Below are positions 9,232 to 24,085 of a stretch of 24,786 nt of DNA, one piece after another. Origin of the DNA: a virus. Below the pieces are notes generated by a model. That model saw only the letters and a program-made list of their open reading frames with translations. It was not told the DNA's origin and searched no databases. The stretch lies in IMG/VR virus record IMGVR_UViG_3300009149_000259, positions 1 through 24,786 of that record; one strand, given 5' to 3'. A program made the translations under genes and the position numbers. Each line of letters begins with the position of its first letter. Within the stretch, counting starts at the first letter, position 1.

Positions 9232-9645
9232 CTACTTTAATCCCCGCTTGAGTGCAATAGCTGAGGCAGCATCGGCTGTTAATCCCTGTCGTTGGCTATC
9301 TGCTACGATGGGTCTGGATGCATCTACTGGTAAAACACGTCTGAATCCATCAATCCAGTCTAATTCCCTTTGACGTTGTTTCCTACGTAAATCATCGGCA
9401 TCGAATATACCACTGGCATTACCAACATAGTATTCTTCTGTTGGTGTCCAGTTTGAGTCGGATGTCCCTCCGTAATCATTATTGTTGGTTGCTATCATGC
9501 TAACACTCCCTAAAGTTACGCAGAGCGTCAGTCCGGCGGCCATCAGCCAATAAAATCCACGTCTCAAATCGCCGTGGCTGAACCAGACAATCGAGGCTCC
9601 GAGGTCAAGGACCATAAGCAGCAGGGGAAAGAGTTTGGGATTCAT
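9232..9645 (-). CDS. Small membrane protein with two transmembrane segments
   Basis: A 137-residue protein with two N-terminal hydrophobic segments (about residues 4-21, LFPLLLMVLDLGASIVWF, and 28-50, FYWLMAAGLTLCVTLGSVSMIA) joined by a short charged loop, followed by about 85 hydrophilic residues. ATG 9645 overlaps the stop of the methyltransferase gene in an ATGA junction, so I use it rather than an upstream in-frame start. No family is recognised. Two transmembrane helices next to terminase genes could suggest a holin, but the long soluble tail is not typical and no endolysin is nearby. Confidence 0.65.
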   Translation of the reverse strand: MNPKLFPLLLMVLDLGASIVWFSHGDLRRGFYWLMAAGLTLCVTLGSVSMIATNNNDYGGTSDSNWTPTEEYYVGNASGIFDADDLRRKQRQRELDWIDGFRRVLPVDASRPIVADSQRQGLTADAASAIALKRGLK

Positions 9646-10874
9646 TTTGGATCTTTCAGTTCGGTCCACTTTTTGCCATCGCTTTCGCGTTTAGCTGGTT
9701 TTCCAGAAAAATCTACATATCTCTGAATTATAACATCACAATAGTGCGGATCGATTTCCATGCCGTAACAGATACGGTTCAGTTTCTCGCACGCTATGAG
9801 CGTTGAACCGGAGCCGAGGAATAAATCTAAAACAGTATCACCCGCAGTTGTTCCACCATTTAAATACTTACACAGAAGCGCGGTAGGCTTTGATGTTGGG
9901 TGGGCTTCGCTCCCAGATGTCTTTTCATGTTGAAACACCTCAGCGGCAACAAAGCCCTTAGACCCACAGAATCGATGCTTGCCGATATATCCGTAAGTTA
10001 GCACCTCATAATTTTGTATATAGTCGGAGTTTTCTAAGATTCCTCCACCTTTGATCCAGTATAGCCACTGATGAAAATGAATTTCCAGTTCGCCGAAGAT
10101 ATTTTGAAAAAGAGGTATATCTCGATTGGCATGAAATACGTAATAGTTGCAGTTTGGATTAGATGCCCGCAATGCGTTAGATAAAAATTGAACCATAAAT
10201 AAGCGGAATACGTCTTTCTTTTTTTTGTCGTCGTAATTATTATAAGCCCTTGCTATATGGCCCAAATTAATATTATATGGCGGATCGGTGAACACCATAT
10301 CGGCTTTATTCCCATCCATGAGCCGCTCGACATCCTCGGCCTTCGTAGAGTCGCCGCATAATACGCGGTGATTGCCGAGCATCCACAAGTCCCCCGGCTT
10401 AGTAATAGCCTCGTCCGGCGGTTCAGGCACGTTGTCCGGGTCGGTCAAGCCTTCTGATGGTGGAGTGAACTCACCTTGTAGTTCTTTGATCTCGCCCACG
10501 GTAAAACCGGTCAGGGTTATGTCTATATCGGGCAGTGCATCGAGTTCGACAAGTAGGTTGGTCAGCACGGGGTAGTCCCATCCGCCTCCGGTTTTATTAA
10601 GGGCAATGTTAAGTAGCTTGGCTTTGGTATCGTCATACTCCCTATAGACGACTGGTACGGTGGTCATGCCCAGTATCTTAGCTGCTTTCAATCTCTGGTG
10701 TCCGCCGATAACCATCTGGTCTGATGGCCGAACGATGATCGGATCGACAAAGCCAAACTCTTTTAGGCTACGAACAACGGCGGCCAGTTGTTCTTCGGTA
10801 ATGGTCCGAGGGTTGCCGGGCCAGGGCTTGAGTTTATCAACAGGTACTTGAACAATGGCAATATCATCAGGCAC
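9642..10874 (-). CDS. ParB-like nuclease domain fused to DNA methyltransferase (beta class)
   Basis: Residues 1-95 form a ParB/Srx-like domain (VDKLKPWPGNPRTITEEQL, then VIGGHQRLKAAKILG). A linker follows, then a DNA amino-methyltransferase with DPPY at 197-200 and the SAM-binding motif DLFLGSGST at about 350-358. This order, catalytic motif before SAM motif, is that of beta-class enzymes methylating adenine N6 or cytosine N4. Phages carry this fusion widely, probably to protect their DNA from host restriction. No restriction nuclease partner is present. GTG 10874 has GGAG six bases upstream and overlaps the preceding gene by eight bases. Target specificity cannot be read from the sequence. 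Confidence 0.9.
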   Translation of the reverse strand: MPDDIAIVQVPVDKLKPWPGNPRTITEEQLAAVVRSLKEFGFVDPIIVRPSDQMVIGGHQRLKAAKILGMTTVPVVYREYDDTKAKLLNIALNKTGGGWDYPVLTNLLVELDALPDIDITLTGFTVGEIKELQGEFTPPSEGLTDPDNVPEPPDEAITKPGDLWMLGNHRVLCGDSTKAEDVERLMDGNKADMVFTDPPYNINLGHIARAYNNYDDKKKKDVFRLFMVQFLSNALRASNPNCNYYVFHANRDIPLFQNIFGELEIHFHQWLYWIKGGGILENSDYIQNYEVLTYGYIGKHRFCGSKGFVAAEVFQHEKTSGSEAHPTSKPTALLCKYLNGGTTAGDTVLDLFLGSGSTLIACEKLNRICYGMEIDPHYCDVIIQRYVDFSGKPAKRESDGKKWTELKDPK

Positions 10875-15478: not shown

Positions 15479-17149
15479 CTATGTCGCCTCCTCATTGTTC
15501 TGTTCCAGTGGCAGGCCCACGTTGGCGTCCATAGCCAGGTCATCGTAGGGCTTGTGCCAGTAGCTCGTCGCGCTGCGTAGGCTCTCGAACCGCCAGGATA
15601 GGTTTTTCTGAGTGTATCCAGCTAGTTTTAGGTACTGGCACATTTTCGGGTTGGTGATCCGCTCGCCGAGGACCGTACGGAGGTGCTCCCGCAATTCCCC
15701 GGCATGAATGTAGATTTGCCCGTCTTTGAGCAGGGGCAGGTTATTGGCCGCCTTGAATTGCCAGGCTCCGTCGCTGACATCGGGTCTGTTTTTGAGGTAG
15801 TTGGTAATCCACTGGTTGGCCTCATAGTCGGGCCGGGATTCGGGGTTATCGACTACCTCGACCACCTGGCCGAGACAGTTGCAGATACCGGCCCATTTTT
15901 TAGCTTTCATGCTGGTAAACAATATTTTACCAATAGCCTCGTAAACTTTGTCCCGGAATCTGTTAGTAGTGGTTATATCAGATACGTTGCCCATCGGAAT
16001 CCACTGGCCGCCAGCCAGTTGCATCGAGTATTTCGCATCGACTTTGCCGTGCTGCATCCACCGCACAATAGGCAGCCCCAGTTCGCGGCTTATCTGTTGG
16101 AGGATAAAAGACCTTTTGGCCTGACTATCCGGTATGGCGTGGGCTTTATCGGCCAGGTCCTCTATGCTGCTTTTGGTATCACGTCTGGCCGGAGTGAGAA
16201 TATGGTTTTTGATCCAGTCCCAACGCAGAGCCTTTTCCGGCTTATCCTTGTGCCTTCGCCGCCAGGCGATAATCAGGTTGGCGATCTCCTGGTCGACCCA
16301 GCCGGCAGCCACGGCAGTATTGGCCAGGGACAAGCAGTAGGCGCTGGCCGATTGGTCGGACAACTTGCTATTCTGACGGTTCCACGACCGTTTGAAATTG
16401 ATGTCATTCTCGATCAGTGCGGTGAGTTTTTCAGTGGGTGCATCCGCCTCAGCGGACAAAACAATATCATCAACCTCAACGACAGTAGTGCTCCAAGCGC
16501 AAAAGTCATCATCTACCAAGATATTCTCAAAGTCATCGGGCAGATATTTTCCGTCGTGTATGTCGGCGGTGATTACCGCTCGCGGCTTAGGGTATTTATG
16601 GTTAAGCGTTCCAGGCAGCCTCAGTACGCGGGTCAGGTCGCCTACGCTGTCGATGTCGTATCCAAGTTTGGAGGCCTCGCTGCGGAGCGTAGCTCCCAGG
16701 CGTTTGCACAATTTGCCGGCGGCAGTCCGCTCATCGTCTGAATCGAATATCCACGGCTCTTTGAAAATCCAATATACGTGTAGGCCGCCGCCGCTGTTGA
16801 CAATAATCGAGGGTTTGAGTGGTATGCCGGCAAATATTTTGCGGGCCTCCGCTTCGTTTGGTGGTAGGTTGGGCTTAGAGTGCTGCTCGTCGGCTAAGTC
16901 GATGTCCGCCCATAGACCGCCGATACCAACTACATTGGCCAGCTTCCCGCGTCCGTGCGGTGATCCACCAATTAGGCCCAGGCCGAAATATACATTTTCA
17001 TTCTCGGCCTGGGCCAGTGCAAACTTTACAGCCTCGGCGGTATTATCAAACCGCTTGGTTGTCCTGCTCGGCAGGCAGAAAATAGACAGTCTGTGTTCAC
17101 CGTCTATCCCGTCTTGGAACAGGGCTTGCAGGAAATCGTTGGTGTCCAT
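15479..17149 (-). CDS. Archaeo-eukaryotic-type primase (RepB-like / prim-pol)
   Basis: A 556-residue protein. Residues 1-200 carry the AEP fold pattern: IGGLWADIDLAD (the D-x-D metal site at 82-84), IVNSGGGLHVYWIF (the S-x-H nucleotide site at about 119-125) and DLTRVLRLPGTLNHK. This is as in plasmid RepB' and phage prim-pol proteins, which start DNA synthesis with short primers. The C-terminal 350 residues have no Walker A, so no helicase domain is fused. The separate UvrD-like and SNF2-like helicases may compensate. The start has GGAG seven bases upstream. The gene ends at the repeat-rich region, which supports a replication role. Confidence 0.85.
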   Translation of the reverse strand: MDTNDFLQALFQDGIDGEHRLSIFCLPSRTTKRFDNTAEAVKFALAQAENENVYFGLGLIGGSPHGRGKLANVVGIGGLWADIDLADEQHSKPNLPPNEAEARKIFAGIPLKPSIIVNSGGGLHVYWIFKEPWIFDSDDERTAAGKLCKRLGATLRSEASKLGYDIDSVGDLTRVLRLPGTLNHKYPKPRAVITADIHDGKYLPDDFENILVDDDFCAWSTTVVEVDDIVLSAEADAPTEKLTALIENDINFKRSWNRQNSKLSDQSASAYCLSLANTAVAAGWVDQEIANLIIAWRRRHKDKPEKALRWDWIKNHILTPARRDTKSSIEDLADKAHAIPDSQAKRSFILQQISRELGLPIVRWMQHGKVDAKYSMQLAGGQWIPMGNVSDITTTNRFRDKVYEAIGKILFTSMKAKKWAGICNCLGQVVEVVDNPESRPDYEANQWITNYLKNRPDVSDGAWQFKAANNLPLLKDGQIYIHAGELREHLRTVLGERITNPKMCQYLKLAGYTQKNLSWRFESLRSATSYWHKPYDDLAMDANVGLPLEQNNEEAT

Positions 17150-17173: not shown

Positions 17174-17929
17174 CTATTCTTCGGTAGGCTCAGCAGCGTA
17201 ATCGGTCGGCTCAACACGCACGGCCTGAAGGTACGGTCGTAGTTCCATGCTGATCCGTTTGAATTGCTCAACCTGGGCCGGTTCCAGCATACTAGCAGTG
17301 GTCAAAACGGCGCGGCTGTATTTGATGCCCTCGCCGTTGCTGGCCTCTTCGAGGTCGAACTTGGTTAGAACCGCGTAGTAGGGCAGTGATCGTGAGGCTA
17401 GTCGCAGCATATACTGCTTGGCCTTTCGCAGACTGGTGGGCGGTAGGCTGACGCAGATGGGGAGCATACCATTTTCCCGCATGACAAACAATAGTTTTAG
17501 TTGCTTGCAGGCCTGGCCTTTGCCCTTCTTGGATGAACCAAATTCTGCGAATGGACACTTATTACAGCTTCCGCCAGGTGTGCCGATACCGGTAATACTA
17601 TCGTCGGAACTGCAATCCGGCGGAGTGTTTCCGCCGCCCTCATCGAGGCCCTTCTCCCAGTAGACGCGCCCGAGCTTGTGGTAGATGATGACCCCGGTGA
17701 AGCTACCAACTACCTCGTCCTGATCTACTCCGGGGATCACCCAGGCTTTTGTTCCGCCGGCGGGTATCCGCACGCGGTCGAGTTCAAAAGGGCTGAGTCC
17801 CTCGGCGCCGATATTCTCGGCTAGGCTTTGATTAAGACCTGCGATACCAGCCTTTAGTATCGCAAATTCCTGGCCGCCGATGACGGCCAGGCCTGTTTCC
17901 TTCTTCCCGTTTCCGTTTTTCTTCGCCAT
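17174..17929 (-). CDS. Conserved phage protein with Cys cluster, possible ssDNA-binding protein
   Basis: A 251-residue protein beginning with a Lys/Gly/Asn-rich segment, then a domain with regular beta strands and the segment PPDCSSDDSITGIGTPGGSCNKCPFAEFG followed by KGQACKQLK. Four Cys (in C-x-SS, C-x2-C and AC) could bind zinc. A second conserved-looking part is LPICVSLPPTSLRKAKQYM. The pattern recalls a phage replication-associated family often seen beside primases, possibly ssDNA-binding. I cannot name it firmly. Its start has GGAG with normal spacing, and the tRNA gene lies 40 bases upstream. Confidence 0.5.
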   Translation of the reverse strand: MAKKNGNGKKETGLAVIGGQEFAILKAGIAGLNQSLAENIGAEGLSPFELDRVRIPAGGTKAWVIPGVDQDEVVGSFTGVIIYHKLGRVYWEKGLDEGGGNTPPDCSSDDSITGIGTPGGSCNKCPFAEFGSSKKGKGQACKQLKLLFVMRENGMLPICVSLPPTSLRKAKQYMLRLASRSLPYYAVLTKFDLEEASNGEGIKYSRAVLTTASMLEPAQVEQFKRISMELRPYLQAVRVEPTDYAAEPTEE

Positions 17930-17968
17930 ACAACAATCTCCTTTGCCCCATTGGGGCGGTTAGTGGAA

Positions 17969-18039
17969 TTGCGGGGCCTGGAGTCGAACCAGGAACTAGG
18001 GCTTATGAAACCCTCGACTTACCATTTGTCCACCCCGCT
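17969..18039 (-). tRNA. tRNA with anticodon CAU, initiator-like (tRNA-fMet-like)
   Basis: A 71-base cloverleaf on the minus strand (5' A at 18039). Acceptor 2-7/66-71 is GCGGGG/CCCCGC, with position 1 and 72 both A, hence unpaired. The D stem is GAC/GUC. The anticodon stem AGGGU/GCCCU encloses UUCAUAA with CAU at 34-36. The T stem CCUGG/CCAGG encloses UUCGACU. U8 and discriminator A73 are normal, and CCA is not encoded. An unpaired 1:72 and A11-U24 are hallmarks of bacterial initiator tRNA, and the acceptor stem nearly copies the Escherichia coli one. Only two of the three conserved G-C pairs at 29-31/39-41 are present (31-39 is U-G). Confidence 0.88.
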
Positions 18040-18043
18040 ATAT

Positions 18044-18140
18044 GCTCTGATGTCCCGCATCCGGCGTGCCGTCCGGAACTCTTTATGCGGTATTTTTGCC
18101 TCCGTTGTGATGGTGTTGGCATCACATAACCCATCAGAGC
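18044..18140 (-). ncRNA. Structured RNA element just upstream of the tRNA
   Basis: On the minus strand GCTCTGATG (18140-18132) pairs with CATCAGAGC (18052-18044), a perfect 9-bp closing stem. Inside are two arms. One has a perfect 7-bp stem TGTGATG/CATCACA with a 7-base loop. The other has CCGCAT/ATGCGG extended by CCGG/CCGG. The whole makes a three-way junction that ends four bases before the tRNA. Three perfect nested helices in under 100 bases are unlikely by chance. I do not recognise a known class. It could be a tRNA-processing ribozyme, a leader or a free ncRNA. It lies after the stop of the upstream gene and contains no better gene. Confidence 0.55.
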
Positions 18141-18170
18141 TTTACTCGCCAGTCAAGCGAGCAGTCTGGT

Positions 18171-18821
18171 CTAACTAATAGATGCTTCTACCTCTTGTTT
18201 GCCAAGGATAACCTCGATTAAATCTTCACGCTTCTTGTATGCTTCACGAAAGAAATTGGTAGCTACGGTTTCGTCCTGCTCTGCCAAGTCTAAATACTTC
18301 TGGTATGTTTTCTTTGCTAGTTCGATTTCTTTTTGCAGGTCTTGGGCTGTATGTACTTTTGCCCAAACATTACTTCGTATCTGTGACGTTGTAGAAAGGT
18401 ACTTGTCATAGGCATTCTTTTTGGGTTCGTAATCCTTCTTCTTGGCTTCATTATCGGCAAGTACATTTTTCACACACACAACATCTTCGTGGCGATAAAA
18501 TGATTCTTCGCTAATTGCGGAGTCGATTTTGATGGTTAACCACTTATAATCATAACCGATATTCCAGTCGTGATCTGCCTTTAGAATATTCATCTGTGCG
18601 ACTGCCTCAGCATCAGTTCTTTCTGCGAAATACATATCGCCGACACGATAAGCAATCTCAGACTTGATAATGCCAGCTTTTTCTAAAGTTGGTCGTTCAG
18701 GAGGTTCAGTGGGCATTATTCCCGCATGGGCGATCTCAATATCAATTAATCGCTGAACTTGCTCCTCGGTCAAGGCTATCAACTCGTTGTGTTCCAGGTC
18801 ATCAATTCTTTGCATACTCAT
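18171..18821 (-). CDS. Hypothetical charged helical protein
   Basis: A 216-residue protein, acidic and lysine-rich. Early residues are AEQ/E-rich helix (LTEEQVQRLIDIEIAHAG), and the C-terminal 100 residues look coiled-coil-like (DNEAKKKDYEPKKNAYDKYL, DLQKEIELAKKTYQKYLDLAEQDE). Three Trp/Tyr-rich turns lie in the middle (ADHDWNIGYDYKWLTIKID). AAAGGA lies five bases before ATG 18821, and a structured leader lies upstream. No family recognised and no signal or membrane segment. Confidence 0.6.
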   Translation of the reverse strand: MSMQRIDDLEHNELIALTEEQVQRLIDIEIAHAGIMPTEPPERPTLEKAGIIKSEIAYRVGDMYFAERTDAEAVAQMNILKADHDWNIGYDYKWLTIKIDSAISEESFYRHEDVVCVKNVLADNEAKKKDYEPKKNAYDKYLSTTSQIRSNVWAKVHTAQDLQKEIELAKKTYQKYLDLAEQDETVATNFFREAYKKREDLIEVILGKQEVEASIS

Positions 18822-18884
18822 AACTATCCTTTCTAAAAAAATGTGTAGTGGTCAATCACTCGTTTATCCTTCGATTATTATTTA

Positions 18885-18983
18885 CCCTGCCGACCGAGCC
18901 CCGTTCCCATGTATTTGCTCGGCCTGCCTCGACCACCTCAGCTTACGGCAGGGCCATCTACCAGTTGGCGACAGGCTGGTAGA
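18885..18983 (-). ncRNA. Structured 5' leader before the 216-residue protein gene
   Basis: In the 167-base gap the sequence can form TCTACCAG/CTGGTAGA (18957-18964 with 18976-18983, 8 bp, 11-base loop) and CCCTGCCG/CGGCAGGG (18885-18892 with 18946-18953, 8 bp). The latter encloses CCGAGC/GCTCGG (18894-18899 with 18917-18922). All are perfect. A possible alternative pairing is GACCAC (18931-18936) with GTGGTC (18848-18853), near the ribosome site. It resembles a leader or regulatory RNA. No known riboswitch class is recognised. Confidence 0.45.
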
Positions 18984-19814: not shown

Positions 19815-20202
19815 CTTGTAAGAGTCCTTTCAATTCATCTGCCTTATTTTCTTCAAGCCATTTATAAAATTCTTCTATGCCAGGTCTTGAAAAACCGGTG
19901 CCAAGATATGTGAATTTGCCAGTGGCAAAAAAGTAGTCTTGAACTAGAGGAATAATCTCTTTCCTTAAATTCAGATATGGGTATTTATTTTCTTTTTTCT
20001 GTTGATCTGATCCACCTTTTAGTTGATAGGGTGTTCCGCACTGTGTGCACATTCCTTCCCCGTGATAATCACTCCACTGAAAAGTCATGGGGACTGCGCT
20101 ACAGACAACACATTTTTTGTTTTGAGCAGAAGACTCATTATTGGCCATTAGATCATAATCATGTAGAACGCCTTGTTTTGGTTTTGACATTTCAAACTCC
20201 AT
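19804..20202 (-). CDS. Zinc-finger-containing hypothetical protein
   Basis: A 132-residue protein with a four-Cys zinc ribbon at about residues 31-56: KKCVVCSAVP, then GEGMCTQCGTPY (two C-x2-C pairs). The remainder has aromatic residues and a short C-terminal acidic helix (EENKADELKGLLQDEH). ATG 20202 overlaps the helicase gene end and has GGAG seven bases upstream. Another ATG four codons in is also well placed. Family unknown. Confidence 0.6.
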   Translation of the reverse strand: MEFEMSKPKQGVLHDYDLMANNESSAQNKKCVVCSAVPMTFQWSDYHGEGMCTQCGTPYQLKGGSDQQKKENKYPYLNLRKEIIPLVQDYFFATGKFTYLGTGFSRPGIEEFYKWLEENKADELKGLLQDEH

Positions 20203-22927
20203 GTTTTATCTCCGCCAGTATTGATTCGATTACGGTTTTTCTTTGCTTCAAAGCCTTATAGACTTTCTCATCCACGGTTTTACGAGCCACCAAATGCAAG
20301 TAAGTTACCGATCTCTTTTGGCCGGGTCGATGCAGCCTGGCCATGCTCTGCTCATAATCACCGAGGCTGAATCCCAGTGAGTAGTAACAGGCGTAGGCTG
20401 ATCGAGTCAGGTCGATTCCCAGTCCGCCGGCCTGAATCTGCACGGCCAAGACCTCGCCGCCAGTAGCCGCCTTCCACTCGGCTAGTTCGTTGATTGAGCC
20501 GGATAGCTCAAAGCATTTGCGTTCGGCTTTTTCGGATATTTGTTGGACAGTTTCGAGGTCTCGTCTGAATCGGCAAAATACAACCAGCGGGTCGGACTGC
20601 TCCAAATCGTCTAGTATATCAGCCAGGGCCTCGGCTTTGCCGGTGTCGATAGGCATTTCCGTACCGGTTTCGAGCTTGGCAAAGCCGCTAGTTATTTGCT
20701 GCAATCGTATTAATCTGGCCAGGGCGTTGGCCGCCGTTATAATGCCCTCGCCTACATCGGCTATAAATTGTTTCTCTAGCTCATCATAGGCTTTGCGAGC
20801 TGTATCACCGAGGTCTATAATTCTCGGTTCATGGATCACCGGCGGCAGGTCGAGCACATCCTCTTTTTTGACTCGATGGGCTATCGAATAAAATAACTCG
20901 TTGAACTCCTGCTCGTTCTGATAACCGATAACCTGGTGGTTCTCGAAGCCACCGAGGACGGCAAAGTGTGCGCGAAATCTTACAAAACTTGTACCGAAGA
21001 TTCCTGGGTCGAGAAATCTGTATTGGGCGTAGGCGTCGAGGGGCGAATGCGGTAATGGCGTGCCACTAAGTCCCACCTTGCGAACGGCTTTTAGTTTGGC
21101 CATGAATTTGCTACAGCGGCCTGCCGGGGCTTTTATTTTGTGGCAATTATGGACGAGCAATCCATTAGCAAAATAATTTCCTGTAGTAGTTTCGAGATTC
21201 ATTACTTCTTGATTTGTTTCATAATCTGTGTTGGATTTTCCAAAATATCCCAGTTCCAAAAGTGAAAAACTTTCCATCCTAGGTTTTCTAACATCTGATT
21301 TTTTCTCATATCTGTAGCTTGAACCTTTTTCGTTTTGTGTGTATGGCCGTCCACTTCTATTGCTATTTTTAGTGTTGGATTTGCTATGTCTATTTTCAGA
21401 TGGTTTACACAATGCTCCATCAACCATCCTTTGCCTAATAAATGATATAATGCCAACTGGGGTTTCGTTGGACCTGCGCCATTGCCACCGTTTAGATGTT
21501 TCCAACCTTGGGCTGCCAACTTCGCTAAACCCTTTTCTCTGGTTTTGGGATCTCGAAAAGGATTCCTGTCTGAATGTAAATACTGCTGAAGTTTCTTCAT
21601 CGCTTTTTTGTTTTTGCGCAGTTTTAGCATGTTTGCTTTGCTCTTGCTGCGCATATGTTCGGTGTATACTTTTGCTTTGTGTTCTGGTTGAGACATTCGC
21701 CATTTGGCAGAACAGGAAGTACCACAAAATCTCCGTGGTTTGCCTCTCGCCATTTTCTTGTCCGCCAAAAATTCTCCTCCGCATATTTGGCAAATAAGAT
21801 GATAGGGTGTTTTGCGAGGTCCATGTGGTGGCGGATGTGCTTGGGTACGGCATTGGTTTGAACAATACATTTGTGTTTTTCTTATCGTAGTGTAGGTCTT
21901 TTTGCAATTTTGACAGACAAGTTTGTACATTTCTTTTTTCTCCTGGTTGAGCCATAGGATATTTTATATCAATGCAGTACACTGAATCAAGATATTTTTT
22001 TAATAAATTTGCTGCAATATAGCCCCGATCTGTGAATACGGGATGTTCGGGGGTAAGATATGTATTCCCTACTTGTACAAAATTACACGATGATGTTTTC
22101 CTAAATATATGTTTTATAATGGTTTCTGTAATTTTGCCTGTTTTATGGTCAAATCCATAAACCAGATCGCCTAGTTGAATATCTTCGATCTTTTTGTCTC
22201 CTAGCGGGGTAGATATTTTTGTACCTAATGGGACACACTCGTCGGCCACAATCATATCCCATTTAATCTCGGTGGCGAATTGACCGAATAGATTACGCCA
22301 TACAGCATCGTAGTTTATTACCAGGACTATCTTTTCATGCCGGGCATTGGCCAGTTGTAACTGTTGTCTAGCTAGTTTAGTTCGTGCCGCAATGGTTCCC
22401 TCGCGCAAGGCAATGACGTTTACAAAATAGCGGGCGTGTTTCTCGAACTCCGCCGGCCAGGTATCAATGACGCTTTTTGGGCAGACGATAAGCACCTGTG
22501 TACAATCAGTTATATTACACACCGCGTCCACTACACACTTTGTTTTGCCTGTCCCCATGCTGAACGCGAGCATTGACGCGGGCAACAATTTAATCAGGTG
22601 ATAGCCCTGAGTCTGATGGTACCAGGGTTTGGTTTCTGACTTGGCGGGTTCCAGATATTTTTTGAGTTTTATTTCTTCGGCAGTAACTCGCAGTGATATA
22701 AGCTTGGAGATTTCTGGATCAATCTCCGGCAATCGCCCATATTTTTCAGGTGGGTACAAATCATAGATAAAGTTCTTTGCGATATATGCGCCGGCGGCAG
22801 TGGCCGGCAGATACCAGACTTTCGACCTGGGGTCCCACCTGACCCCCCGCAAAGCCTTGACTCGGTCTTTAAGTTCGTAGGGTGTATTAAGTTCAATCCT
22901 GTTATTTTTGAGTGTTGCTGTCGCCAC
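20192..22927 (-). CDS. SNF2/HARP-like superfamily 2 helicase interrupted by an intein
   Basis: The 911-codon frame holds a DNA-dependent ATPase with an intein (residues 231-594). Without it the protein has 547 residues. The N-terminus (LRGVRWDPRSKVWYLPATAAGAYIA) resembles the HARP-like domain of SMARCAL1-type annealing helicases. Motif I is SMGTGKTK (about 123-130). Motif II reads DE/CHK across the intein junction. Motif III-like GLSGTP and motif VI YEQSMARLHRPGQKRSV follow. The product probably remodels forks or annealed DNA in phage replication. GTG 22927 has GGAG six bases upstream, and a near-perfect sigma70 promoter precedes it. A second endonuclease gene is nested in the intein in another frame. 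Confidence 0.9.
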   Translation of the reverse strand: MATATLKNNRIELNTPYELKDRVKALRGVRWDPRSKVWYLPATAAGAYIAKNFIYDLYPPEKYGRLPEIDPEISKLISLRVTAEEIKLKKYLEPAKSETKPWYHQTQGYHLIKLLPASMLAFSMGTGKTKCVVDAVCNITDCTQVLIVCPKSVIDTWPAEFEKHARYFVNVIALREGTIAARTKLARQQLQLANARHEKIVLVINYDAVWRNLFGQFATEIKWDMIVADECVPLGTKISTPLGDKKIEDIQLGDLVYGFDHKTGKITETIIKHIFRKTSSCNFVQVGNTYLTPEHPVFTDRGYIAANLLKKYLDSVYCIDIKYPMAQPGEKRNVQTCLSKLQKDLHYDKKNTNVLFKPMPYPSTSATTWTSQNTLSSYLPNMRRRIFGGQENGERQTTEILWYFLFCQMANVSTRTQSKSIHRTYAQQEQSKHAKTAQKQKSDEETSAVFTFRQESFSRSQNQRKGFSEVGSPRLETSKRWQWRRSNETPVGIISFIRQRMVDGALCKPSENRHSKSNTKNSNRSGRPYTQNEKGSSYRYEKKSDVRKPRMESFSLLELGYFGKSNTDYETNQEVMNLETTTGNYFANGLLVHNCHKIKAPAGRCSKFMAKLKAVRKVGLSGTPLPHSPLDAYAQYRFLDPGIFGTSFVRFRAHFAVLGGFENHQVIGYQNEQEFNELFYSIAHRVKKEDVLDLPPVIHEPRIIDLGDTARKAYDELEKQFIADVGEGIITAANALARLIRLQQITSGFAKLETGTEMPIDTGKAEALADILDDLEQSDPLVVFCRFRRDLETVQQISEKAERKCFELSGSINELAEWKAATGGEVLAVQIQAGGLGIDLTRSAYACYYSLGFSLGDYEQSMARLHRPGQKRSVTYLHLVARKTVDEKVYKALKQRKTVIESILAEIKHGV
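21146..22237 (-). other. Intein in helicase motif II (364 residues)
   Basis: The intein begins with Cys (codon 22237-22235) in CVPLGTKISTPLGDKKI (block A). Block B is GNTYLTPEHPVFT with a standard T-x-x-H. Block F is VMNLETTTGNYFANGLL, and it ends VHN (Asn codon 21148-21146), followed by Cys as C-extein nucleophile. It therefore has all residues for standard splicing. Splicing restores DECHK. Between the Hint halves the reading frame runs about 240 codons through low-complexity, Ser/Asn/Lys/Arg-rich sequence that is the out-of-frame reading of a zinc-finger endonuclease gene. Confidence 0.92.
21202..21930 (-). CDS. Zinc-finger and Vsr/DUF559-like homing endonuclease nested in the helicase intein
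   Basis: A 242-residue protein in the +1 frame relative to the helicase. It has two Cys4 zinc knuckles (C6, C9, C23, C27 and C47, C50, C69, C73), a linker with a NUMOD-like segment (SDRNPFRDPKTREKGLAKLAAQG), and a C-terminal Vsr/DUF559-type nuclease: KIDIANPTLKIAIEVDGHTH with D181, E192, D194 and H196/H198 as likely catalytic residues, followed by LGWKVFHFWNWDI. Such patch-repair-like domains are known in homing endonucleases linked to inteins and introns (EDxHD type). ATG 21930 has AGGAG nine bases upstream, so it can be translated by itself. It is bracketed by the Hint halves and is more A+T-rich than the helicase. Confidence 0.88.
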   Translation of the reverse strand: MYKLVCQNCKKTYTTIRKTQMYCSNQCRTQAHPPPHGPRKTPYHLICQICGGEFLADKKMARGKPRRFCGTSCSAKWRMSQPEHKAKVYTEHMRSKSKANMLKLRKNKKAMKKLQQYLHSDRNPFRDPKTREKGLAKLAAQGWKHLNGGNGAGPTKPQLALYHLLGKGWLMEHCVNHLKIDIANPTLKIAIEVDGHTHKTKKVQATDMRKNQMLENLGWKVFHFWNWDILENPTQIMKQIKK

Positions 22928-23287: not shown

Positions 23288-24085
23288 TTATTTCCTTTCC
23301 GGCATTTGCCTTACTCGCAGCTCTTCCGGCCACTCCGAGGGGGTGTGGCTGACCTTGCCGTTTATCTCGACCTGCTTGACGTAGCAAGGGACATTGGCTG
23401 CCTTGCATTGGCTCACAATGTCGAAAACCCATTTTAGCTTGCACGGTCGGCGGTGCGGGCCAGATTCGCAGCCGACTATTACCCAATCAATCGGAATTTC
23501 TTCAATCGTTCCATTATTTCGTTGCCGTACCCCTTTTAGCGGCAATATCATATAACCTTCCAACATCGGCTCTAGACTAATCCACCTTACCGCTGCCGGT
23601 ATGTTCAGCAGTATCGGTATCCGCTTGTCGGCCCACTCCTGGTTTTCACAGGACACGCCGAGCCATACATTTGGGAATATATCAGGGAATTGATCTCCAT
23701 ATAAGAATTGAATACTTTTGGCCATGCGGTCGGATCGCTTCGTGAGCACAAGAAAAGTAGCATACGAGCATCCCATCAATTTGAACACACGATTTATCTC
23801 TGTGCCCCGGATATTGATACTTTCGTGAAAAAGGTCTCCCATGAACTGAACTGCAATCTTGCTGTTTTCTTTAGCATTCATTACAACATCAGCGTCTTTG
23901 TCCAAGAATATAGGCTTACCCCCCGCCTTGGCCGCCCGAACCTCGGCGGAGAGCAAGGGATTGTTCTTCTGCCGGTCGCACATCCGCAAATGCCAGCAGT
24001 TTTGACAGCCTTCGGATACAGGCGTACAGCGCATGGCCAGCGGATTCCACGAATGCGTTACGTAAGAAATGTTAGTCTTTTGCAT
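23288..24085 (-). CDS. DUF5131 (phage Gp37/Gp68) family protein
   Basis: A 265-residue protein. The N-terminal segment ISYVTHSWNPLAMRCTPVSEGCQNCWHLRM has the T-x-x-x-W-N-P and C-x6-C-x2-C layout of the DUF5131 family, which resembles a radical SAM-type or iron-sulfur site. Further family-like parts are VLTKRSDRMAKSIQFL, NVWLGVSCENQEWADKRIPILL, RWISLEPMLEG and WVIVGCESGPHRRPCK. These proteins are common in phages and their reaction is not established. Length is normal. Confidence 0.85.
   Translation of the reverse strand: MQKTNISYVTHSWNPLAMRCTPVSEGCQNCWHLRMCDRQKNNPLLSAEVRAAKAGGKPIFLDKDADVVMNAKENSKIAVQFMGDLFHESINIRGTEINRVFKLMGCSYATFLVLTKRSDRMAKSIQFLYGDQFPDIFPNVWLGVSCENQEWADKRIPILLNIPAAVRWISLEPMLEGYMILPLKGVRQRNNGTIEEIPIDWVIVGCESGPHRRPCKLKWVFDIVSQCKAANVPCYVKQVEINGKVSHTPSEWPEELRVRQMPERK

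Follow-up and report, generated by a model that had tools for sequence, protein, structure and literature searches.

The window, by which we mean the whole 24,786-base (24.8-kb) phage fragment analyzed here, carries a single tRNA gene, at positions 17969-18039 on the minus strand. Comparison with bacterial and viral tRNAs suggests that it encodes an initiator-type methionine tRNA that is probably formylated and used in initiation, a reading to which we assign a probability of about 0.68. As an object in its own right the tRNA is ordinary and the result is modest, the kind being already known from phage T5; it is of greater interest as a member of a group of viral tRNAs that appear to keep the marks of an initiator and often drop the third of three anticodon-stem G-C pairs.

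The tRNA gene and its genomic surroundings

The window comes from an IMG/VR virus record and contains matches to major head protein, head maturation protease, portal, terminase, and helicase(s). ARAGORN makes a single tRNA-Met(cat) call at 17968-18040 on the minus strand. The Rfam RF00005 match (17969-18039, minus strand) scores 55.7 bits against a gathering threshold of 29 (E 1.1e-9) and is full length (positions 1-71 of 71), with 1:72 flagged as a non-standard pair; together, call and score bear out the tRNA proposed in the first-pass annotation. The minimum-energy fold, computed from the bases, is a cloverleaf in which nucleotide 1 is unpaired and the anticodon helix is prolonged into the loop. 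Its energy of -28.2 kcal/mol (z -2.39) is equalled by one of 200 shuffles; a search for the D-arm and anticodon pattern gives a single hit in the window and no hit in 100 shuffles.

The identity elements can be read directly on the minus strand, from nucleotide 1 (18039) to nucleotide 73 (17969). A1 (18039) lies opposite A72 (17970) and leaves the top of the acceptor stem unpaired, below which the 5' strand 2-7 (GCGGGG, 18033-18038) pairs with CCCCGC (17971-17976) as G2-C71, C3-G70, G4-C69, G5-C68, G6-C67, and G7-C66. The D-stem is formed by G10-C25, the initiator mark A11-U24 (18029 and 18017), C12-G23, and an A13×A22 mismatch; A15 and U48 are present as well. The anticodon CAU (18005-18007) lies in the loop UUCAUAA, closed by a stem of A27-U43, G28-C42, G29-C41, G30-C40, and U31·G39. 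G29, G30, and U31 (18010-18012) face G39, C40, and C41 (18002-18000) at the site of the three G-C pairs, the third of which is therefore U·G. The discriminator A73 (17969) is followed by TTC (UUC), with no encoded CCA, so CCA must be added post-transcriptionally. The bases reported earlier (CAU, A1×A72, A11-U24, and GCGGGG/CCCCGC), for which no strand had been stated, are correct on the minus strand; 1:72 remains unpaired on re-reading, and the remark that one of the three G-C pairs is missing is exact, with U·G at 31:39.

Upstream of the tRNA, beyond a 131-nt gap (18040-18170), lies a minus-strand ORF of 216 aa (18171-18821) without a family match in PHROGs, Pfam, or PADLOC. Downstream, starting 39 nt past the tRNA, is a minus-strand ORF of 251 aa (17174-17929; phrog_23155, function unknown). 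A search of 17800-18900, which takes in the gap, turned up no sigma70-like promoter, and we infer co-transcription with the adjoining minus-strand genes. A search of 17700-18400 returned no repeats, and searches of 20 window proteins against PHROGs or Pfam brought up no integrase. The segment 14000-24786 has no close relatives in annotated phages. The downstream 251-aa protein has no close relative in the viral contigs; against annotated phages it gives 12 matches, all of them distant. In six capsid relatives, both the tRNA and a homolog of the downstream gene are absent (0/6 for each).

Several other minus-strand genes of the window deserve mention. The 911-aa SNF2-type helicase (20192-22927) has its SNF2 domain match split into two stretches, between which a weak, below-cut-off Hint_2 match begins at residue 231. 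The DEAH-like box is interrupted at this point (DE / CH), and the insert starts with Cys and ends with Asn-Cys, so that it is probably an intein. At 9642-10874 a ParB-like domain is fused to a DNA methyltransferase, with phrog_498 covering nearly the whole protein, and a 556-aa protein (15479-17149) best matches the N-terminal portion of a DNA polymerase/primase profile from phages (residues 36-197) and is otherwise unassigned. A DUF5131 protein (23288-24085, phrog_2045) also matches PDC-M41B and PDC-M30B, two models of candidate defence genes in PADLOC. The product of 18989-19447 matches DUF7307, "Pam3 gp33-like protein"; Pam3 is a cyanophage, and the match is too weak for naming a host.

Initiator and elongator features

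Bacterial controls comprised 123 chromosomal initiators from at least 119 loci (pattern scan of species genomes, among the matches listed), together with CAU elongators, 13 from the initiator loci and 29 from an elongator-pattern search with matches in 27 of 30 genomes. Removal of duplicates left 84 initiators and 42 elongators. C11-G24 is fixed by the search pattern in 29 of these elongators and free in the other 13. Viral contigs were searched with two patterns, each matching at least 119 of them: pattern 1, used alike for the viral and bacterial initiator sets, fixes GCGGGG and A11-U24, and in pattern 2 the fixed parts are A11-U24 and the window's D-arm (GACAA...AAGTC), with no constraint on the acceptor. 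Positions 1:72, 29:41, 30:40, and 31:39 are free in all patterns. The viral contigs yielded at least 194 distinct A11-U24 CAU tRNAs. As DNA of the host or of other viruses may be present in IMG/VR contigs, 27 tRNAs with at least 92% identity to a bacterial initiator, among the matches listed, were set aside as host-like, leaving 167. Set 2 consists of 88 viral tRNAs whose selection, among the matches listed, was based on D-arm and anticodon alone. The counts take in tRNAs called by ARAGORN, leaving out one viral and one bacterial tRNA without parsed positions; 16 of the 167 viral tRNAs are mismatched at 2:71 or 3:70, partly because their 3' strand was read out of register, and were kept in the counts.

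The bacterial classes differ at 1:72 and 11:24. Position 1:72 is mismatched in 83 of the 84 bacterial initiators among the matches listed, as it is in the window, and is G-C or G·U in all 42 elongators, in which the partner of G1 is C72 in 29 cases and U72 in 13. All 42 elongators have C11-G24, including the 13 in which the pattern left 11:24 free rather than fixed (29), and none has the A11-U24 of the window. The combination of a 1:72 position other than G-C with G2-C71, C3-G70, A11-U24, and A73 occurs in 82 of 84 initiators among the matches listed, in 0/42 elongators, and in the window, the 11:24 part of this comparison being circular because the sets were selected on 11:24. The acceptor features stand apart from that selection: the window combines a true mismatch at 1:72 with G2-C71, C3-G70, and A73, as do 48 of 88 members of set 2 (matches listed), compared with 0/42 bacterial elongators (p 3e-11) and 6/36 other viral CAU tRNAs (p 1e-4). 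When G·U is allowed at 1:72, the counts become 63/88 for set 2 (matches listed), 12/42 for elongators (G1·U72), and 9/36 for other viral CAU tRNAs.

The available part of PMC9976931 gives an open 1:72, A73, G2-C71, C3-G70, and G4-C69 as formylation elements, and that of PMC7949028 adds A11:U24. All six of these elements are found in the window, with A·A at 1:72 in place of the C·A of E. coli. A·A is rare among bacterial initiators, with two cases in 84 among the matches listed (L131 and L177, the latter probably misread by the parser). In the phylum of one A1×A72 match, from Chloroflexi, an A1-type initiator pattern was found in 1/61 genomes, counting initiators that fit the pattern, and the single hit is that same match. 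Three anticodon-stem G-C pairs are described in the available portion of PMC7949028 as aiding P-site selection; of 29:41, 30:40, and 31:39, the window has two.

An initiator-versus-elongator profile that treats positions independently gives the window a score of +2.4, or -8.9 without positions 11 and 24. Bacterial initiators score 49.2 to 74.9 when left out one at a time, and elongators have a median of -88.6 and a 95th percentile of -65.9; the elongator maximum of 13.3 is taken to be L177, probably a misread initiator that was counted as an initiator in later comparisons. The window falls between the bacterial classes because many of its positions (27, 32, 43, 49, 65, and others) differ from those of bacterial initiators. 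Its best identities, among the matches listed, are 78.5% to viral A11-U24 tRNAs, 72.3% to bacterial initiators, 66.2% to bacterial elongators, and 64.6% to other viral CAU tRNAs. The initiator type suggested in the first-pass annotation thus holds at 1:72 and 11:24 and is weakened by the third G-C pair and the intermediate profile score. As for its proposal of a variant or an elongator derived from an initiator, the variant is borne out, as U31·G39 recurs in viral tRNAs, and the elongator is the less likely of the two, with the profile score between the classes.

Such an elongator would read internal AUG codons, its weakened stem having lowered its preference for the P-site. The lost third G-C pair and the profile score are compatible with this, and the same anticodon arm (AGGGU-UUCAUAA-GCCCU) occurs in the tRNA-Met of Shigella phage Sf16, which is elongator-like (G1-C72, C11-G24). 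Elongators need a paired 1:72 for EF-Tu, however, and the window has neither this pairing nor the C11-G24 found throughout the bacterial elongators (pattern-fixed in 29 of 42), so we consider an elongator unlikely. Still less probable is a host initiator gene copied into the phage, now without function and in decay, such as an integration remnant. The missing CCA, the altered third G-C pair, and the failure to find a promoter-like site in 17800-18900 would fit decay, and some viral-contig tRNAs are indeed host-like (the 27 of 194 distinct A11-U24 tRNAs mentioned above). Yet the stems of the window tRNA are intact save for A13×A22 and the open 1:72, its Rfam score is good, and its identity to any of the 84 bacterial initiators listed is at most 72.3%. 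None of 498 bacterial genomes from two phyla, moreover, has its D-arm type (pattern 2, 0/249 in each), and the searches for an integrase (20 window proteins) and for repeats (17700-18400) came back empty. A tRNA-Ile2 in which CAU is modified to LAU (lysidine) to read AUA is hardly credible: CAU is common to Ile2, and T5 has an annotated CAU tRNA-Ile beside its initiator, but C11-G24 and a paired 1:72 are universal in the 42 bacterial elongators, which presumably include both elongator Met and Ile2 types, and are both lacking in the window.

The viral group and its changed anticodon stem

Like bacterial initiators, viral A11-U24 CAU tRNAs avoid G-C at 1:72 (163/167 and 84/84, respectively, among the matches listed). 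The viral position is a mismatch or G·U in 126 cases, A-U or U-A in 37, and G-C in 4, which makes it Watson-Crick in 41 of the 167 listed. G2-C71 (142/167), C3-G70 (145/167), and G30-C40 (133/167) are likewise common among the viral matches listed, in which 4:69, 6:67, and 7:66 are G-C in some tRNAs and A-U in others. The anticodon stem is different. G31-C39 is present in 74/167 viral tRNAs versus 83/84 bacterial initiators (p 6e-21), and all three G-C pairs in 7/167 versus 70/84 (p 2e-39), again among the matches listed; the 14 bacterial exceptions listed lie at 29:41 in 13 cases and at 31:39 in one. These counts suggest that the viral group has mostly kept the open acceptor top and has let go or changed the three-GC stretch. 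16S rRNA contacts pairs 29:41 and 30:40 more than 31:39.

U31·G39 itself occurs in 32/167 viral initiator-type tRNAs among the matches listed, compared with 29/890 viral tRNAs with other anticodons (p 6e-12). It is also present in 4/36 other viral CAU tRNAs, a proportion no different from that of the initiator-type tRNAs listed (p 0.34), and in four named-phage CAU tRNAs without A11-U24, so its specificity for initiators is unsupported. On a tree of 151 viral rows, the 16 with a 2:71 or 3:70 mismatch having been dropped, U31·G39 requires 19 changes and therefore seems to recur; resolution is weak, with 135 of the 266 forks open. The nearest rows to the window are viral tRNAs, on a long branch whose placement is unsure. 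Because the change recurs in viral CAU tRNAs and is present in the annotated T5 initiator, toleration or selection is a better reading of it than decay; the window is not alone in lacking this G-C pair. The loss of the third pair across phage initiators was undescribed in the titles and abstract openings searched, a scope outside which most subscription papers fall. The group points to natural initiators that tolerate losing a feature which is taught to be almost universal.

Some neighboring cases are harder to classify. The CAU tRNAs of Streptomyces phage HaugeAnator (L393, 2500-2574) and Stenotrophomonas phage Mendera (L399, 127-201) have T×T or U-A at 1:72 and U31·G39 but also U11-A24, a mixed initiator and elongator pattern. 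In Mesorhizobium phage vB_MseS-P1 (L407, 1500-1574), an initiator-like tRNA (A×A, G11-C24) is predicted inside an annotated transcriptional repressor gene, and either the tRNA call or the repressor annotation is probably wrong. Among the viral contigs, tRNAs with a CTA anticodon, reading TAG, stand beside initiator-type tRNAs in arrays (L016, 9896-9969; L034, 4138-4213), and two contigs with an initiator-type tRNA also carry predicted tmRNA genes (L046, 7255-7623; L050, 4542-4943).

If the window tRNA is an initiator, it would be excised from the minus-strand transcript, given CCA by the host, and charged with methionine via its CAU anticodon. Formylation would follow from the open 1:72, G2-C71, C3-G70, G4-C69, and A73, and the formylated tRNA would initiate on the mRNA of the phage (and on what is left of that of the host). 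We infer each of these steps, from transcription, CCA addition, and charging to formylation and P-site use, from the features of the gene. Internal codons are not normally read by an initiator tRNA, which makes codon supply a poor reason for a phage to carry one. This touches the old question of why phages carry tRNAs at all, since codon supply does not readily account for a lone initiator. The 80 pattern-2 matches listed include 38 contigs of at least 30 kb, and a census took in 37 of them, leaving out L010, which has several tRNAs. A single tRNA was found in 11 of these 37 records, which may be fragments, and ARAGORN confirms it as the CAU tRNA in 10 of the 11, the tRNA of L283 not being called.

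Peptide deformylase was considered as a partner gene and showed no association, being present in 3/37 census records; there is therefore no general formyl-Met module. In one record (L320, G579), the deformylase frame (71139-71534) has five in-frame TAG codons, which suggests that this phage reassigns TAG.

Why a phage should keep such a tRNA may be explained, tentatively, by resistance to tRNases, an idea that is compatible with the initiator reading: an altered residue 39 would let translation start after cleavage of host tRNAfMet. The available part of PMC4105405 states that enteric VapC cuts tRNAfMet between A38 and C39, and that of PMC10264068 proposes the same escape logic for other phage tRNAs. 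A38-C39 is present in 83/84 bacterial initiators versus 76/167 viral tRNAs among the matches listed, and the window has G39. The enrichment of U31·G39 over other anticodons, its 19 changes on the tree, and the 10 of 11 single-tRNA records (37 in all) in which the lone tRNA is confirmed as CAU fit the same idea. Against it, U31·G39 is also found in other viral CAU tRNAs and in the four named-phage tRNAs without A11-U24, and in PADLOC searches of 10 window proteins the only match was the DUF5131 protein, about 5 kb from the tRNA. Furthermore, tRNAfMet is a target of S. flexneri VapC, and S. flexneri phages generally avoid encoding it, according to the available part of PMC10264068. Relaxed selection that spares the central 30:40 pair could give part of the pattern and is the simple alternative to escape from tRNases. 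All told, we regard tRNase escape as possible and somewhat unlikely. A broader proposal, that phages maintain initiator lineages of their own in which the formylation marks and G30-C40 are kept and 31:39 has shifted from the almost invariant G-C of bacteria, repeatedly to U·G, because initiator-specific tRNases cut beside residue 39, is speculative and in our view doubtful. If true, a phage would keep starting translation after the host initiator is destroyed, sometimes with the initiator as its only tRNA. The group of viral tRNAs is concrete enough for both initiation and tRNase resistance to be testable.

Known counterparts

Bacterial tRNAfMet resembles the window in its GCGGGG acceptor, open 1:72, A11-U24, CAU, G30-C40, and A73. 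It departs from it at G31-C39, G12-C23, and C13-G22, each present in 83/84 bacterial initiators among the matches listed, where the window has U31·G39, C12-G23, and A13×A22. Mycoplasma initiators with AU/GC/GC, GC/GC/GU, or AU/GC/GU anticodon stems also have an altered three-GC stretch; their wobble pair, however, is G31·U39 in place of the U31·G39 of the window, whose gene is viral.

Among named phages, 13 CAU tRNAs were recovered from 15 stretches. A11-U24 is found in three of them (T5, CcrColossus, and CcrRogue), and of these three the T5 tRNA alone has U31·G39. ARAGORN found no CAU tRNA in GMA2, PpS_SYP, or GAP32, and it missed the annotated CAU tRNA-Ile of T5.

An initiator tRNA of the T5 kind has apparently been known since the 1970s, judging by the title of a 1975 paper, and Chen et al., an entry in the references of the review PMC4810235, is reportedly connected with phage initiator tRNA. 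Cyanophage tRNAs include initiator tRNAfMet according to the available part of that review; what this has in common with the window tRNA is that a phage encodes it. With an annotated initiator in T5 and others cited in cyanophages, a phage initiator tRNA is therefore not new, and with at least 119 viral contigs matching each pattern the premise of the first-pass annotation that it would be notable as an exception is unsupported.

The closest counterpart is T5 tRNAfM (AY543070, 32428-32505), annotated as "initiator tRNA fMet," which is identical to the window in 48 of 79 aligned columns. The two share an open 1:72 (T×T in T5, A1×A72 in the window), G2-C71, C3-G70, A11-U24, CAU, G30-C40, and U31·G39, the stem being AGU/GCU in T5 and GGU/GCC in the window. 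They differ in that T5 tRNAfM has U73, its gene encodes CCA, its D-arm and variable loop are longer, and it lies within a large tRNA array, whereas the window tRNA has A73 and no CCA and is alone in its fragment. The window nevertheless has the features of the T5 type: it is phage-encoded, with an open 1:72, A11-U24, and an altered three-GC stretch. What sequence comparison adds to this known kind is a widespread viral group in which the apparent initiator marks are kept and a stem is altered that bacteria rarely alter.
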